Shown: piece by piece, positions 54,775 through 64,000 of the stretch | Position numbering within the stretch: the stretch's first letter is position 1 | How the letters are laid out: every line of letters begins with the position of its first letter | Assembly: GCA_025928545.1 (NCBI GenBank) | Contig: JAICJH010000022.1 | Location: 1 to 64,000, forward strand | Length of the DNA: 64,000 nt | Origin: Bryobacteraceae bacterium | GTDB taxonomy: Bacteria > Acidobacteriota > Terriglobia > Bryobacterales > Bryobacteraceae | Reading direction: 5' to 3' | Position numbers and translations under genes: made by a program | The notes under the pieces: generated by a model | Database searches by the model: none | The model's input: the letters and a program-made list of their open reading frames with translations, nothing else | Told to the model about the DNA's origin: nothing

Positions 54775-56145
54775 TCATGCCACCGCATGATCCACTTCAT
54801 CCAGAGGCTCCCGGATCAGGCGATGAAGGTACGTTCGCGAAATGTGGAGGTTTCGTGCCGCCAGCGTTTTGTTGCCATGACAGTCCTGGATGGCTTTTTG
54901 GGCGATTTTGACCTTATATCCATTCAACTGATCCTCAAAAAAGCCGGACGGTAGTGAATCCCCGACTCCGAGCAGATCGGGCTGCTGCATATCTTCCGGC
55001 AGTTGCTCGGGACGAATGGTATCGTCATCTGTCAAAACGATTGCCTTCTGGATTATGTTCTCCAGTTCGCGGACATTCCCCGGCCAGGCATGATCCACCA
55101 GCAGGGCCATGGCATTAGGCGCAATCGTCGTCACATGTTTTCGGTAGACTTCCGCATATTTCTTAACAAAATGGCGCGCTAGCAACGGGATATCTTCCGT
55201 GTGGTCGCGAAGCGGAGGGGCCTTGATTCCCATGACATTGATCCGGTAGTAGAGGTCAAGCCGGAAGTATCCGTCTTCCACCATCGCCTTCAGATTTCTG
55301 TGGGTCGCGAACACCACGCGCGCGTTCAGCGGTATAGGGGCGTTGCTGCCCAGCCGACAGAATTGTCTTTCCTGAAGAACGCGAAGCAATTTCACCTGAG
55401 TCCTTGCGCTCAGTTCGCCGATCTCATCGAGAAACAACGTTCCGCGTCCTGCCTGCTCGAGATATCCCCGACGGCTTACAGATGATCCGGTGTAGGCACC
55501 CTTCTCGCTGCCGAACAGTTCCCCTTCGATTAAAGTGTCGGGAATCGCTCCGCAGGATATCGGGACAAGGGGATGCTGCCTTCGCTCGCTCAGATTGTGG
55601 AGCGCCCTGGCGATTAATTCTTTTCCAGTCCCGCTCTCACCCGTTATGAGCACGGATACCTCAAGGGGCGCCACTCGGCGGATCATGTCGTAGACGTGGC
55701 AGAGGCGCGCGCTCGATCCGATCATCTGATCGCATCCGGCGGTCTTTTCCCTGAGCTGGCTGTTGATATTTTCCAGATCTCTCCGGAGGCTGCCATACTC
55801 ATGAGCGCGTCGCACAGCCACTCGAAGCTCCGAAAGAGCCGGCGGCTTCCGGAAACAGTTATGGGCACCTCGTTCGACCAGTTCCTGCGCGGTCTCGCGG
55901 CTTTCGTCATCCAGCATGATCACAACCGGCACGCGGGAAACACGGATACGGTCGAAAAAGTCTAATTGTTCTTCTGCATCGCCACCTGCGAGATCCATAA
56001 TGAGGACATCACATTTGCGATTGAGCACCAACCCCATGGCAGTATCGGGCTCCGCTTCAACTGAAAGCTGAAAATCCGCGCCCAAGGTGGGCTGCAGCAT
56101 GAGTTGAAGACCTGTGTCTTTCGAGTACAGCAGAATTCGAATCAT
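54775..56145 (-). CDS. Sigma-54-dependent response-regulator type activator, Tad locus
   Basis: This is an NtrC-like activator of about 456 residues that drives sigma-54 promoters. The N-terminal receiver-like domain has Asp51 (LIMDLAGG) and Lys100 (FRKPP). It has only one acidic residue at the N-terminal site (LLYSKD) and no Thr/Ser after strand 4 (VVIMLDD), so phosphorylation may be atypical. The AAA+ domain has GESGTGKELIARAL (Walker A), GAYTGSSVSRRGYLEQA (GAFTGA variant), GTLFLDEIGEL (Walker B) and DLYYRINVMGIKAPPLRDH. The C-terminal Fis-type helix-turn-helix is LAARNLHISRTYLHRLIRE. The ATG at 56145 follows GAAGGG. I saw no clear sigma-54 promoter nearby. Confidence 0.9.
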   Translation of the reverse strand: MIRILLYSKDTGLQLMLQPTLGADFQLSVEAEPDTAMGLVLNRKCDVLIMDLAGGDAEEQLDFFDRIRVSRVPVVIMLDDESRETAQELVERGAHNCFRKPPALSELRVAVRRAHEYGSLRRDLENINSQLREKTAGCDQMIGSSARLCHVYDMIRRVAPLEVSVLITGESGTGKELIARALHNLSERRQHPLVPISCGAIPDTLIEGELFGSEKGAYTGSSVSRRGYLEQAGRGTLFLDEIGELSARTQVKLLRVLQERQFCRLGSNAPIPLNARVVFATHRNLKAMVEDGYFRLDLYYRINVMGIKAPPLRDHTEDIPLLARHFVKKYAEVYRKHVTTIAPNAMALLVDHAWPGNVRELENIIQKAIVLTDDDTIRPEQLPEDMQQPDLLGVGDSLPSGFFEDQLNGYKVKIAQKAIQDCHGNKTLAARNLHISRTYLHRLIREPLDEVDHAVA

Positions 56146-56885
56146 AATCCCTTCGGCCACATAAAACGCTGATCATGCGTATTAACGTACACAGTATGCA
56201 CGCACGAGCGTGTCCAAACTACCTCTTGTGAGTCGACTTGTGGGATAAATCGATTTATGCCTTTTTGGTTAAGTAATAATACTTATTTACTGAGGACATC
56301 AAAAAAAGCTAAACTATGTAAATAATCACTTTATAACCTGAGCAACCAAAGTGAATATACCTAGATCCACTACACCGCTGCATTTTCCCGAAACCAGACG
56401 ACTTCGGCCAGTCGGGAGATTTTTGGGCTTCTACGCACGGTTGCCGGGCGTGGATACGCTATTTGGCACAGTCGGGGAATTGACTACGTTCGCCGCTGTC
56501 ATTCTTGCCGTGATCCGCGCCACGTTCCCCTCTCTGCAATGTCGCGAGACCGCGATTGTACAGCACAGGATGCCGTTCGCGCCCAGGAATCGACGCTCGG
56601 TGGGACAAGGCTCCTTATCAGGGACCGCGATAGTACCCATCCCGCTCCTCACCATAGCGCCGAATCGCCTCGCGAAATGCTGCGTCACCGCCTGCGTCCG
56701 AGACGTAAAAATACTATCGCGATTCGGTAAACCGCACTCGCGGCCAGTCTAATAGAGTATGAATACTCAGCCAACAGGCATGACTTACTTCCTGACAACG
56801 GGTTTCCGGCGGATCTGCGTTCAGTGGAAGGTCAGGCGGATTAGCGTGTTGGACCGATTGCGGGGTACATGGGCACCGGTTGTAA
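56146..56885. other. About 740 bases without a confident gene; part is A/T-rich
   Basis: The part at about 56200-56350 is markedly A/T-rich for this genome (runs such as AAGTAATAATACTTATTTAC) and is a likely regulatory zone for the divergent activator and kinase genes. The part 56350-56750 has open frames on both strands, one reading LLIRDRDSTHPAPHHSA on the plus strand, which hints at a very decayed integrase-core fragment. The support is weak. Confidence 0.35.
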
Positions 56886-56939: not shown

Positions 56940-58019
56940 ATGCAAGCCGCTTGGTCCATTGGGCACTTTGGAGGGGCAGGGCGAGAGCGCGTGAGACGTA
57001 TCTCTGCTAAATCCGGTGAGGAAGATGGCAATCATCCCCGTGGTGCGCACGGTCAATTCGATAGCCGCGACCTGCTGGCGGCCCTCGACCGTTGCGGAAT
57101 CGGCGCCGCGGTCACTGGCGCCGATGGTAAGTTCAAGTGGGCCAGCAGGACCTTCTGCCGGATGACCGGCTATAGGGCGGGAGACTTGCGGTCGCTTACG
57201 TGGGCATCGGTCGCACACGCTGCGAGCCCGGCACTTGAGCGGGAATCAACCCGGCACATGTTTGCCGGCAAACCAACAGAATTTTCCATCGGCAGGAATA
57301 AAGGTCAGACGTTGTGGGTGTGCGGCGCAGCGCGCCGGATGGCCCGCGAGGCCAATCAGAAGCCCGGGTTCATCCTGGTGCTGACGGATATAACCGATCG
57401 AAAACAGGTTGAGCAGACCGAGCGGCGGCGCATCGCCCGAGAGTTACACGATACGACGGGACAGAGTCTTGCTGCTCTGGTGGCAACTCTGGGGCAGTTG
57501 CGGGATTCACGGGCTGATACGGCTCCGAGCGAAATCGTTGATGACAGTATTGAACTCGCGAAACAAGCCGCGCGGGAAATCCGGACCTTATCTTTCCTCC
57601 TCTACCCACCGGAGTTAAGCAGTCTCGATCTGGCGACCGCGCTCAGGCAATATGTTGACGGATTCAGCACGCGGAGTGGAATCGATGTTTTATTGAAGAT
57701 GCCGAAGAAGTTGCCCCCTGTCGCCCGCGAGGGCGCGGACGCCTTGTTCCACGTGGTCCTTGAAAGCCTGAATAATGCGTGGCGACACTCTGGCAGCCAC
57801 AAAGTAACGATCTCTCTAACGGCGCCCCGCAACCAAATTCTTCTCGGGATCCGGGATTTTGGCCGGGGGAACCGGCCACATCCGGATCGGCCCGGGGTAG
57901 CGGGGTTATCCGGTCTGGGCATCCCTGCCATGCGTGACCGGATGCGTCTGTTGGGAGGTGATTTGCGGGTCGAATTTGGATCGCGTGGCACTGTTGTGAA
58001 AGCTCGTTTGCCGTTATGA
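56940..58019 (+). CDS. Histidine kinase with PAS domain (NarX/DegS-like, HisKA_3)
   Basis: This is a cytoplasmic sensor kinase of 359 residues without membrane segments. The PAS domain (about 45-155) has DRCGIGAAVTGADGKFKWAS, TFCRMTGYRAGDLRSLTW and the PAC end GFILVLTDITDRKQ. The HisKA_3 dimerisation motif ERRRIARELHDTTGQSLAAL places the phosphorylated His at residue 170. The ATP-binding domain has LNNAWRHSGSHKVTISL (N box), IRDFGRGN (G1) and GLSGLGIPAMRDRMRLLGGD (G2). It overlaps the response-regulator gene by four bases. Its place between the Tad activator and the secretin genes suggests control of pili (inference). A GTG at 56991 is another possible start. Confidence 0.88.
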   Translation: MQAAWSIGHFGGAGRERVRRISAKSGEEDGNHPRGAHGQFDSRDLLAALDRCGIGAAVTGADGKFKWASRTFCRMTGYRAGDLRSLTWASVAHAASPALERESTRHMFAGKPTEFSIGRNKGQTLWVCGAARRMAREANQKPGFILVLTDITDRKQVEQTERRRIARELHDTTGQSLAALVATLGQLRDSRADTAPSEIVDDSIELAKQAAREIRTLSFLLYPPELSSLDLATALRQYVDGFSTRSGIDVLLKMPKKLPPVAREGADALFHVVLESLNNAWRHSGSHKVTISLTAPRNQILLGIRDFGRGNRPHPDRPGVAGLSGLGIPAMRDRMRLLGGDLRVEFGSRGTVVKARLPL

Positions 58020-58726
58020 CGACGGTGATTCACATGCCCGCTTCGATCGTCGTCGTGGATGACCATGCGATCGTGCGCTGGGCGTTGCGCAACCTGCTGC
58101 AATTACAGTCCGGCTGGAAGGTCGTCGGAGAAGCCGCCAGTGGCCAGGCGGGAATCGGCCTCGTTGAAGAACTGCAGCCCGACGTTGTTGTTCTTGACCT
58201 CAGCCTGCCGGAAATGAACGGCGTGGCGGCGATTCGGCCGATCCGCGAAGCTGCCGGGGGAACTCGAGTAATTGTTCTGACAATGCACGACTCGGAAAAC
58301 CTTATTGAGGATGCGATTCGTGCGGGTGCGTGTGGCTACGTCCTGAAATCCGATCTCGAGCAGGAACTGATCAACGGGGTCACGGCCCTGCTGAATGGCC
58401 AGACATATTTCAACTCGCCCACGGCATGCGCCGTCTACCATCGCCTGTGCGGCGAGCACAAACTGGATGCGGGCAGGCAGGTAACGGAGCTTTTGAGTGT
58501 CCGTGAGAACGAAATCCTGAAGTTGCTGGCGAGTGGCTGCACCAACAAGCAGGCTGCGGTGCGACTGCAACTCAGCGTAAGGACAATCGAGAACCACCGG
58601 GCGCGGATTATGCATAAGCTCGAAGTCCATTCATATGGCGATCTGCTGCGTCTGGCTATGGGAATGCAACTGATCGAACCCCGCTCACCGGAATTGACGG
58701 CGCACGACGCGCATCATGATTCGTAA
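58016..58726 (+). CDS. NarL/FixJ-family response regulator
   Basis: This is a 236-residue two-component regulator coupled to the kinase by an ATGA overlap. The receiver is complete: Asp15-Asp16, phospho-acceptor Asp61 (VVVLDLSLPEMNG), Thr89 (IVLTMHD) and Lys111 (GYVLKSD). The C-terminal LuxR-type helix-turn-helix reads LLSVRENEILKLLASGCTNK, QAAVRLQLSVRTIENHRARI and MHKLEVHSYGDLLRLAM. Signal and targets are unknown. It converges on the CpaC gene. Confidence 0.93.
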   Translation: MTTVIHMPASIVVVDDHAIVRWALRNLLQLQSGWKVVGEAASGQAGIGLVEELQPDVVVLDLSLPEMNGVAAIRPIREAAGGTRVIVLTMHDSENLIEDAIRAGACGYVLKSDLEQELINGVTALLNGQTYFNSPTACAVYHRLCGEHKLDAGRQVTELLSVRENEILKLLASGCTNKQAAVRLQLSVRTIENHRARIMHKLEVHSYGDLLRLAMGMQLIEPRSPELTAHDAHHDS

Positions 58727-61370: not shown

Positions 61371-61679
61371 CTTGCCTACCCGCAGTGACGCAGCGCATTT
61401 CACACACCGGGAACTGCGACCCGAAGTCCGCGTGGAATCATCATCTTGCAAGGCAGCGTGGAGCGGAGGTGTACACCGTCAGAGACATTGGCGGCGCGAA
61501 AGTACGCCCGCGCGGACATTGGGTGCAGACCTTAGATTTAGCTGGGGTTTAACGGTGAATTGCAGCGTTTGAAGTCGAGCAGCCGTTTCCGGGATCTTTC
61601 GACTCCAGCTGATTCTGATGTATCGGGGAGCGTTCAATTGTTCAGCGGGGCAATTGGCGGAGAGTTCCGTGATTAGCGG
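61371..61679. other. Intergenic stretch between cpaB and the DUF192 gene
   Basis: It is 309 bases long. One frame continues upstream of cpaB in phase for 81 bases, but it is Ser/Arg-rich and lacks a ribosome site. No hairpin or sigma-54 site stands out; a partial match near 61437 (CCACGCTGCCTTGCA on the minus strand) has the wrong spacing and lacks the GG. Confidence 0.4.
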
Positions 61680-62156
61680 CTATCGCAGGCGCGCATTTGG
61701 AGGCGTAGTTTCGGTTCGGATGCCGACGACTGAAGACATTGCATCTTCGGTGCACCCGGAATGTTGGGTGGTTCCTCCCAGCCACAAGTGGATTTCCCGG
61801 GGCTGGCAAATCACTAACTGATCTCCAATCCTGGTATGGGATGAGTAGATAGTTCGGGTCCGCAACTCCAATACACTGGCGCAACCAGACCGAATGGGCG
61901 AGATGCGGAATGGGCCAAGGTGCTCCACCAGGTGGATCACGCGGTTTGCTTCGTCGAGATAGACCAGATCGACCGGGAAAAGCATACCGAACGTGTGGAC
62001 GCCGCGCGAAGGAACAATCCAAAGGCCATCTTCCGGGGCGAATTTGACTCGTCCCAGAAGGCCTTTCAGACGCGTAATCGTCGTGTTTGCCGGGGCTACA
62101 TTTAACCCGAGAAAGGATTCGCGGGTCCGATTGAAAACGCAGAAGGTCCGCCTCAT
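61680..62156 (-). CDS. DUF192 family protein
   Basis: This is a 158-residue protein. The DUF192 barrel is recognisable by FNRTRESFLGLNVAPANTTI, TRLKGLLGRVKFAPEDGLWI, PSRGVHTFGMLFPVDLVYLD and GCASVLELRTRTI. The conserved H-T-F-G-M-x-F-P-x-D block is typical. The last about 35 residues are not part of the domain. DUF192 genes are often close to Tad genes in Acidobacteriota, though their role is unknown. Confidence 0.82.
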   Translation of the reverse strand: MRRTFCVFNRTRESFLGLNVAPANTTITRLKGLLGRVKFAPEDGLWIVPSRGVHTFGMLFPVDLVYLDEANRVIHLVEHLGPFRISPIRSGCASVLELRTRTIYSSHTRIGDQLVICQPREIHLWLGGTTQHSGCTEDAMSSVVGIRTETTPPNARLR

Positions 62157-62283
62157 CTACATACTCCGAAAGGAAATCGAGGTCGATGGTTTCGTCGCCG
62201 CTGTTTTCGTGGTTTTCGGTTATCAGGGCAACCGGAGTTCGTCAGCGGCGAACTCCGGCGTCTGGACACAGAGGTTCTCCTGA

Positions 62284-62379
62284 TCAGGTGATCTTTCTGC
62301 GGCGGCGCTGGACGAGAAAGACCAGCACGATAAAGAAGCATGCAGCTGCAATTGCCCGAATCATCGTTACGTTGTCCAT
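62284..62379 (-). CDS. 31-residue single-pass membrane mini-protein (copy 2)
   Basis: This short gene starts MDNVTMIRAIAAACFF, has a hydrophobic helix (AAACFFIVLVFLV) and ends with a basic tail QRRRRKIT and TGA. The ribosome site is AAAGGAG, seven bases before the ATG. Its sequence is closely paralogous to the gene at 62751-62849. It is too short for ordinary gene callers. It may fix itself in the inner membrane with the charged tail in the cytoplasm (positive-inside rule). The family is not recognised. Confidence 0.75.
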   Translation of the reverse strand: MDNVTMIRAIAAACFFIVLVFLVQRRRRKIT

Positions 62380-62674
62380 ACCATTCTCCTTTCCTGGTGA
62401 ACCCGTTCAGAAGTCGTCGCTCGGGGTCCATCTTCCGGTTCCTGCCTTTCTACAGCGCAAGTGGTGCACCTTATCCGACCTGCCGGGTTTCGTGTGAAAT
62501 CAATGATTTGTGAGCTGAGTTATGCATGGGTTGTTCACCCGGGGTTACACAGGGCACCTGTTGTTTGCCTGCGTGAACACTGCACAAGAAGTCCCGCTGA
62601 AACGCTGGTCGATCAATGATAGGTTGATGCCGGATCAGACGAGCATGAACGAACGTAAAGAATTTTGATGGAGG

Positions 62675-62704
62675 CGGCCATCCGGGGGCATGCCCGGATG
62701 GCCG
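62675..62704. other. Perfect 12-bp hairpin between the two mini-protein genes
   Basis: CGGCCATCCGGG (62675-62686) and CCCGGATGGCCG (62693-62704) are exact inverted repeats with a six-base loop. On the minus strand it lies 47 bases after the stop of mini-protein 1. No U-run follows directly, so a processing or stability hairpin is more likely than a simple terminator. Confidence 0.6.
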
Positions 62705-62750
62705 AATCTGGAGGGATGTAGCTGGGGTCGTCATGCGCAGGTATTCATTG

Positions 62751-62849
62751 CTAAGTCACGTTCTTGTTCCGATGATGCCGGACCAGAAAAACCAGTACGA
62801 CAAGAAAGCAAACACCGGCGATCAATCGAATCAGCGTTACGTTATCCAT
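62751..62849 (-). CDS. 32-residue single-pass membrane mini-protein (copy 1)
   Basis: It starts MDNVTLIRLIAGVCFL, has the hydrophobic helix IAGVCFLVVLVFLV, and ends in a basic tail RHHRNKNVT and TAG. The ribosome site is AAAGGAGAGTCTT before the ATG. With copy 2 it shares MDNVT-x-IR, the Cys in the helix and VLVFLV, and also AAAGGAG and AACGTAACG at DNA level. It lies 41 bases after the TadC-like gene on the same strand, so it is likely to be part of the Tad operon. The function is unknown. Confidence 0.78.
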   Translation of the reverse strand: MDNVTLIRLIAGVCFLVVLVFLVRHHRNKNVT

Positions 62850-62889
62850 AAGACTCTCCTTTCTCTAGAGCGAGCAGCGATAGCCCTTC

Positions 62890-63801
62890 TCAGCTGAAAA
62901 ATTGCTGGAATGCCTCAAACATGATGATCATTGACGGTCCCAGCGTCACGACAAAGATCGATGGAAAAATGAACAGGACGAGGGGGAAAACCAGTTTGAC
63001 CGTGGTTTTCGCAGCCTGCTCTTCGGCATCCTGCCGGCGCCGGGTACGCATCGCTTCGGAATGGGCTCTCAGGGACTTACCCACACTCGTCCCAAAACGG
63101 TCGGCCTGAATCAACAGCGCCGTCAGTGCACGTACCGATTCGACGCCAGTCCTTTCGGCACAGTGTTTCCATGCTTCGCCACGCGGACATCCGGCGCGTT
63201 GCTCTAGACTCACCAGAGCCATCTCCTCGGCGATCGCCGGCTGGCTGGTGCGCAGTTCGTCGGCCGTGCGGAGCGTCGCTCTGTCGATGCTTAGGCCGGC
63301 CTCCACGCAAATGACGAGAAGGTCCAGTGCTTCCGGCAGACCGAGGCCGATCTGCAGTTGGCGCCGCCCGATCCGCTGGCCCAGCCAGAAATCCGGCACT
63401 AAATATCCGAGCGCGGCGGCGGTTGTGTAGACGAACAACGGGCTTATCCGGAAAGCACCCGAAATCGTGGCTACGAGACATAGCAGGCAGGGGACGGCGA
63501 CTTTCGCCCCATAAAACACGTTCAGGTATTTCGATTCGCGATAACCGGCCTGTGTCAGTCTTCGTTCCACCGCCGAGACTTCCTTCTCGGTTCGGGGCAG
63601 AACCTTTTGAAACGGGGCCACCAGTTTTTCGATTTTTACCCTCGTCGGTTCTGCAGGCGCTCCCGTCAGCATGGCGGCTCCCTGCGGCGCGGGGCCGATT
63701 CGCGCAATTCTCCGCGATCGCTGCAGGCTGTACAGGACCATCAGGGCGGCGCTGAAAATCAGAAAGAAAGCTGCGAAGAATATTGAAACCGCGATCCACA
63801 T
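62890..63801 (-). CDS. tadC: Tad pilus inner-membrane protein TadC (T2SF domain)
   Basis: This is a 303-residue platform protein of the Tad machine. The first helix is AVSIFFAAFFLIFSAALMVL. The T2SF domain has LPEALDLLVICVEAGLSIDR, RTADELRTSQPAIAEEMALV and VRALTALLIQADRFGTSVGK, followed by SLRAHSEAMRTRRRQDAEEQ and two C-terminal helices (KLVFPLVLFIFPSIFVVTLG). These blocks are typical of TadC. The ATG at 63801 lies just after the TadB stop. Confidence 0.92.
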   Translation of the reverse strand: MWIAVSIFFAAFFLIFSAALMVLYSLQRSRRIARIGPAPQGAAMLTGAPAEPTRVKIEKLVAPFQKVLPRTEKEVSAVERRLTQAGYRESKYLNVFYGAKVAVPCLLCLVATISGAFRISPLFVYTTAAALGYLVPDFWLGQRIGRRQLQIGLGLPEALDLLVICVEAGLSIDRATLRTADELRTSQPAIAEEMALVSLEQRAGCPRGEAWKHCAERTGVESVRALTALLIQADRFGTSVGKSLRAHSEAMRTRRRQDAEEQAAKTTVKLVFPLVLFIFPSIFVVTLGPSMIIMFEAFQQFFS

Positions 63802-63803
63802 GA

Positions 63804-64000
63804 CTATACCTGAATCTTCACGATTTGCCGAATGAGCAAACCGCCGACAACATTCATTCCGCCGGCGGTGTAAAGAAGTTTCAGCCCGATGGGCCGTTTC
63901 CAAAGAATGCTGATTCCCTCTGGATGCACCATGTACATTGCAACGCCGAGGATAACGGGCAGCAGCGCCAGAACCCACCCCGTCGCTCTGCCCTGGGCCG
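63804..64000 (-). CDS. tadB: Tad pilus inner-membrane protein TadB, C-terminal end (cut by window edge)
   Basis: The last 65 codons of a gene entering from the right edge read ATGWVLALLPVILGVAMYMV, then PIGLKLLYTAGGMNVVGGLL and IRQIVKIQV before TAG. This is the usual helix-loop-helix end of TadB/TadC-type T2SF proteins. The stop at 63804 precedes the TadC ATG by two bases, which fixes its identity as the upstream partner, TadB. Confidence 0.85.
   Translation of the reverse strand, partial: AQGRATGWVLALLPVILGVAMYMVHPEGISILWKRPIGLKLLYTAGGMNVVGGLLIRQIVKIQV

Follow-up and report, generated by a model that had tools for sequence, protein, structure and literature searches.

A predicted single-helix microprotein family encoded behind tadC in the Tad pilus loci of Acidobacteriota

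Comparative sequence analysis indicates that two very short tandem reading frames lying behind tadC in a Bryobacteraceae bacterium are members of a true microprotein family that occurs in the Tad loci of Acidobacteriota and has no entry in the domain libraries searched. We consider it highly probable that the encoded mini-protein is the product of a real gene that is functionally tied to TadC.

The window (the whole stretch of 64,000 nucleotides that was analysed) contains two paralogous genes for single-helix membrane mini-proteins of 31-32 aa, each with its AAAGGAG ribosome site (CTCCTTT on the forward strand), in the minus-strand positions reported in the initial annotation (Table 1). The features claimed for them, namely an MDNVT-x-IR start, one hydrophobic helix with a Cys, the VLVFLV motif and a basic tail, are present in both copies, and their neighbours are indeed tadC and a DUF192 gene. 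Downstream of the latter, genes for RcpC and a secretin follow on the same strand, while tadB, tadA, tadZ and a gene for a prepilin peptidase are upstream of tadC, outside the window. A candidate Flp-type pilin with the motif GQDLIEY is encoded on the plus strand within the window, directly ahead of TadE. Also adjoining the Tad genes, at 54775-56160 and 56940-58726, are a sigma-54-type regulator and, by ORF reading, a histidine kinase and a response regulator; matches to sigma-54-type regulators lie beside the Tad genes in two other loci as well (L027 and L028), and this regulator may control the Tad pilus.

Table 1. Features of the tadC to DUF192 region of the window.
Feature	Position	Strand	Description and basis
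tadC (T2SSF platform protein)	62890..63801 (start approximate)	-	Pfam T2SSF, E 2.8e-15
Ribosome-binding site AAAGGAG, copy A	62856..62862	-	Sequence; SD-like sites also in relatives
Mini-protein gene, copy A	62751..62849	-	32 aa; 40 nt past the tadC stop; ORF and homologues across genomes
Perfect hairpin between copies A and B	62675..62704		12 bp, 6-nt loop; sequence; local
Ribosome-binding site AAAGGAG, copy B	62386..62392	-	Read from sequence
Mini-protein gene, copy B	62284..62379	-	31 aa; tandem paralogue of copy A; ORF and sequence
Second perfect hairpin, between copy B and DUF192	62232..62258		10 bp; sequence
DUF192 (COG1430) gene	61680..62156	-	Pfam DUF192, E 1.6e-12; next same-strand gene downstream

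The link to tadC was measured from the partner gene. The class (Terriglobia) was searched with the window TadC, which gave 83 places, spread over 55 of the 101 genomes, and 80 of these places were examined (the window's own, one on contig C43 and one on contig C111, where the contig ends, were left out). Under a fixed rule that combined an SD-like site, a length of 27-57 aa, a strong transmembrane segment and a basic pair near the C-terminus, a qualifying ORF began between -10 and +190 of the tadC stop in 54 of the 80 regions, as against 10 in 623,512 starts at all other positions on both strands, or 0.003 per 200 nt. By position, those 10 are read as four further copies of the mini-protein, five TadB C-termini and one unexplained ORF. 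The ORF behind tadC thus occurs at far beyond chance frequency, and a somewhat relaxed rule finds it behind tadC in 55 of the 80 loci and 49 of the 55 genomes; judged by sequence, some of these same-position ORFs are too diverged for proof of common descent. Of 22 tadC places in other acidobacterial classes, 20 were examined, and five hold a mini-protein gene picked by eye, each with its ATG behind a purine-rich ribosome-like site, while none was seen in seven plasmid-borne tadC loci from Pseudomonadota and Actinomycetota (0/7). Since it is absent from 25/80, 15/20 and 7/7 tadC loci in these three sets, respectively, the mini-protein is not in the universal Tad core.

Searches that started from the mini-protein itself led back to the same gene neighbourhood. 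Among 61 genomes (its own and those of relatives), 18 were matched with an E value of 1 or lower, and seven other genomes held clear homologues with an SD-like site, all seven behind tadC and followed by DUF192 in six and by TadE in the seventh (L027). Of the 10 remaining matches, one genome (G058) has a 51-aa sub-type behind tadC (L018/L129), and the other weak matches, mostly within long frames, are taken as chance. A ten-member profile matched 154 of 399 class genomes at E 0.01 or better, and 30 of these loci, four of them already in the earlier set, were inspected. Both tadC directly upstream and DUF192 downstream were seen in 29 of the 30, the exceptions being L041, where a TadZ-like gene replaces tadC (TadZ-mini-DUF192), and L035, which has no DUF192 within its 3 kb. 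Across the phylum the profile matched 25 of 396 genomes at E 1e-4, four of them outside the class.

The widest survey was a scan of the genomes of 84,980 species in which the core FV[IVM]VLxxLxQRR was sought as a degenerate DNA pattern; it returned 68 stretches, 61 from Acidobacteriota and seven from other phyla. In the seven, the stretch contains neither a Tad gene nor a start codon preceded by a ribosome-like site, and on sequence they look like chance. In all 61 acidobacterial loci tadC lies upstream on the same strand, either adjacent or with another copy of the mini-protein gene between, and DUF192 lies downstream on the same strand in 55; five of the other six are near the end of the stretch and the sixth (L196) has TadE next. 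Membership of a Tad locus in the operon sense was accordingly found in 61/61 pattern loci and 55/80 TadC-anchored loci. From the tadC stop to the first ATG the median distance is 18 nt among the pattern-found loci (60 of them; L147, with a gap of 355 nt, seems to have a misplaced tadC stop, and L158 gives no copy under the strict filter) and 50 nt, with a range of 8-166, in 54 TadC-anchored loci. The order is different in L089 (G124:C81), where DUF192 comes immediately after tadC, and a lone mini-protein gene lies at +5382 from the tadC stop, past the TadE/TadG genes and another large ORF.

Within its own genome the mini-protein was found at three places. Besides the two window copies there is one on contig C43, which belongs to a second Tad operon and again has tadC on one side and a DUF192 gene on the other. 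Matches to TadC are on five contigs (C160, C43, C111, C162, and C97), and mini-protein genes accompany those on C160 and C43. C162 has two dissimilar ones in tandem and C97 none, and on C111 the contig ends directly after tadC, so that the region is cut.

Recurrence of the frame in related Tad loci was checked, and both the frame and an MD-x-x-T...IR motif were found again; some sub-types are without the motif and keep the helix and basic tail alone. Overall the sub-types diverge strongly in sequence, with the helix and basic tail retained. The central Cys noted in both window copies is not conserved in the family, as another residue takes its place in 8 of 10 rows of the alignment. The net charge is -0.3 before the helix and +4.0 after it, and the C-terminal side is the more positive in 54/54. 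A longer sub-type of ~51-56 aa with an extra N-terminal segment, perhaps a further helix or something resembling a signal sequence, is found in L117, L119, L122, L125, L128-L131, L133, L135, L218 and L219.

Selection at the protein level, for which the initial annotation had argued, was examined by comparing synonymous and non-synonymous differences, and the outcome agrees with that argument. In 26 equal-length pairs whose TadC proteins are 70% or more identical (46 unequal-length pairs were left out), pN is 0.18 and pS 0.58 per site, and pN is below pS in 25 of the 26 pairs, which are not independent since many genomes and pairs are related and genomes recur between the locus sets. The exception, L090-L102, perhaps reflects a one-residue shift in the ungapped comparison. 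The two window copies give the same picture when compared with each other (pS 0.61, pN 0.20). The dN/dS of the 61 pattern loci is biased at residues 15-27, because these loci were chosen by a pattern that covers those residues; at sites outside the pattern, pN is below pS in 21/22 comparisons of tandem copies and in 761/765 close pairs of the named loci. It is also lower in 31/31 pairs picked by the identity of the mini-protein, but this choice favours low pN. The substitution pattern indicates that the mini-protein is protein-coding and under purifying selection.

The duplicated state of the gene is real in the window, but it does not extend to the family in general. Two or three tandem copies, with starts 138-364 nt apart, are present in 28 of the 61 pattern-named loci, whereas tandem copies within 700 nt occur in only 4 of the 80 TadC-anchored loci, and duplication is therefore a trait of some lineages rather than of the family.

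The distribution of the mini-protein follows the phylogeny of TadC. In a phylogeny built from 108 TadC proteins (L089 was labelled as having the mini-protein despite the copy being 5.4 kb downstream, L136 as having none, and L132, which is too short, was left out), its presence needs nine changes, while shuffled labels average 35 and none of 500 shuffles was as low. Absence, too, mostly falls by clade, apart from isolated cases such as L076 next to L080. Moreover, in five genomes with two mini-bearing loci, each mini-protein is nearest to one from the same TadC clade in a different genome and does not resemble its genome-mate. One member of a mini-bearing clade, L136 (G089:C677), has a tadC that is apparently frameshifted ahead of the last helix, with no mini-protein gene found; gene decay or a fault in the assembly may account for this. 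Over 53 loci the similarity of the mini-proteins correlates with that of TadB (Spearman 0.45) and of TadC (0.43). Mutual information between the mini-protein and TadC (106 pairs) places 9 of the top 30 column pairs in transmembrane segments, as against 10.9 expected, so that these segments show no enrichment and no contact site stands out. A fusion of the mini-protein to TadC in mini-free loci ("Rosetta stone") was sought by eye in the C-terminal 62 residues of the 108 TadC proteins, and none was seen.

That the family was undescribed, as first proposed, holds for the libraries and the part of the literature that were searched. No family was found above the cut-off in Pfam (11 sequences, one a consensus), in NCBIfam (10 sequences) or, for the sequences tried, in PHROGs, and the profile of the mini-protein had no match among PDB sequences. 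Matches to Syndecan, LPXTG anchor, DLW-39, DUF6903, CcmD and similar entries were below every curated cut-off and are read as chance matches between hydrophobic helices. The titles and abstract openings consulted in the open-licence PMC literature describe no small membrane protein of Tad loci. In the excerpt seen of a study that treats TadB/TadC as a gene fission no comparable part is described (PMC6668835), and the main text of a report on a small membrane protein finder (PMC10903887) contains no word starting with "tad" or "pilus."

The gap between tadC and DUF192, where the initial annotation had placed the genes, is their position in the window and in many other loci, but DUF192 is not needed for their presence. 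It adjoins tadC in 30 of the 80 TadC-anchored regions, and the mini-protein gene is present in 25 of these 30 (and missing next to tadC from the other five) and in 30 of the 50 loci where DUF192 is not adjacent. The latter 30 show that the mini-protein is linked to tadC and not to the tadC-DUF192 interval, and a role for DUF192 as required partner is not borne out. In several loci the mini-protein is kept though the genes that follow look unrelated to pili. DUF192 is itself a frequent neighbour, lying directly behind tadC or the mini-protein gene in many Acidobacteriota Tad loci, mini-free ones included (examples of tadC or mini-protein gene and then DUF192 are the window, L214, L215, L220, L225, L226, L228, L139, and L140); in the literature, a search for the two together led to a report on a Bulleidia genome.

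The 12-bp hairpin between the two copies is perfect, as had been noted, but it is not conserved in the mini-protein family. Perfect stems of at least 9 bp are over-represented yet rare behind tadC, being present in 5 of 81 downstream regions where 0.55 were expected, with two of the five in the window. The 12-bp hairpin is single-copy in its genome, and Rfam gave no match across 61600-64000, so that a hairpin as a family trait is ruled out. Longer inverted repeats were seen in two other loci, a perfect one of 21 bp with a 3-nt loop downstream of the second mini-protein copy in L159, and one of 13 bp in L183.

How might such a small protein serve the Tad machine? We favour, with moderate confidence and by analogy with CydX, an accessory subunit of the TadB-TadC platform that would lie N-out/C-in in the membrane. 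The mini-protein would be co-transcribed with tadC and would insert by its single helix, leaving the short polar N-terminus outside and the basic tail inside, and it would then pack on the TadB-TadC platform as a small subunit that stabilises or tunes it, with the RRRxK tail in the cytoplasm beside the TadA motor or anionic lipid. TadC ends, by hydropathy prediction, in a helix and a short tail. In the excerpt of PMC10790770 that was consulted, the C-terminal helix of PulF faces the periplasm; homology to PulF would put the TadC tail outside, and the mini-protein and the TadC tail would thus start on the same side. Published models of the Tad platform, in the sections seen, mount three TadB-TadC pairs on a hexameric TadA and contain TadA, TadB, TadC and pilin only (PMC11300603, PMC12019362). 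One accessory helix per TadC would suit a ring of three pairs. Against the subunit reading stand the near-equal correlation of mini-protein similarity with TadB and with TadC, the mutual-information result, and the many TadC proteins that manage without a mini-protein.

The closest parallel is CydX (CydY/CydZ). In the sections of PMC4325964 consulted, CydX is a highly variable 37-aa member of the cytochrome bd complex that goes together with a single allele of the partner gene and was sought via synteny. The mini-protein is likewise tiny, plastic in sequence, encoded beside its presumed partner and coupled to particular partner lineages, but it belongs to another machine, shows neither a sequence relation to CydX nor a match to a Pfam CydX family, and its contact with a partner is putative. 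Single-helix accessory subunits of large membrane machines are also known in AcrZ, KdpF and similar proteins; the mini-protein is a single helix too, but the partners are different and no family match lies above the cut-off. With TadB and TadC (CpaG/CpaH) the tie is one of gene order and descent, since the mini-protein gene directly follows tadC in almost every mini-bearing locus and its presence follows the TadC clades; it differs from them in having no T2SSF domain, and no extra C-terminal helix was seen in TadC proteins that go without it.

Size, topology and position would suit a regulator equally well, that is, a peptide made with TadC that controls the stability of TadC/TadB or a conditional switching of the pilus, much as small membrane peptides of the AcrZ or MgtS type act on partner proteins. 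The tandem copies in 28/61 named loci could tune its dose. However, the close spacing behind tadC suggests constant co-production, and there is no sigma-70-type promoter-like site in 61900-63100 of the window; we regard a regulatory peptide as unlikely, though it is the most probable of the alternatives. A more specific mechanism draws on the Caulobacter AlphaFold3 platform, which, in the sections seen, has a ~22 A opening between TadB-TadC pairs, fronted by the first helix of CpaH (TadC) as a possible pilin gate, and for which the authors offer an as yet unidentified regulatory element among the ways in which the direction might be switched (PMC12019362). That the mini-protein is a mobile gate helix of this kind, three of them, one per TadC, sitting at the openings with the basic tail reaching an acidic TadA bundle and setting extension versus retraction, we hold to be a long shot.

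The mini-protein might instead join the filament as a minor or atypical pilin; like it, the Flp (class III) type IV pilins are small proteins with one hydrophobic helix that are encoded in Tad operons. This is very improbable, because no prepilin cleavage motif is present in the aligned members, the charge pattern predicts the reverse orientation, nothing after the helix is able to form a pilin head, and the window has a separate Flp-type candidate of its own. It is extremely doubtful that the ORFs are a mere translated leader or spacer, serving coupling or mRNA stability with an idle peptide: they do sit between two operon genes, with hairpins in the window, but the conservation is at the level of the protein, and the mini-protein is retained in loci without adjacent DUF192 and ahead of unrelated-looking genes. 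Finally, a type I toxin-like hydrophobic peptide, with tandem copies and hairpins as relics of a module, is scarcely credible, as the resemblance (~30 aa, one helix, a basic tail, tandem copies, and inverted repeats close to some of them) is set against a tadC upstream in 61/61 acidobacterial pattern loci and 29/30 profile-found loci (the exception being TadZ-mini-DUF192), a presence that tracks the TadC tree, and the lack of any match to the consensus peptide in plasmid and phage collections.

Tad pili serve in adhesion and surface sensing. A conserved, TadC-tied membrane peptide that is spread across much of a class, yet has no entry in the searched family libraries, would add a part to the Tad machine, and it would offer a simple genetic handle on the Tad platform. 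More broadly, synteny is able to reveal subunits that have been overlooked by domain libraries.
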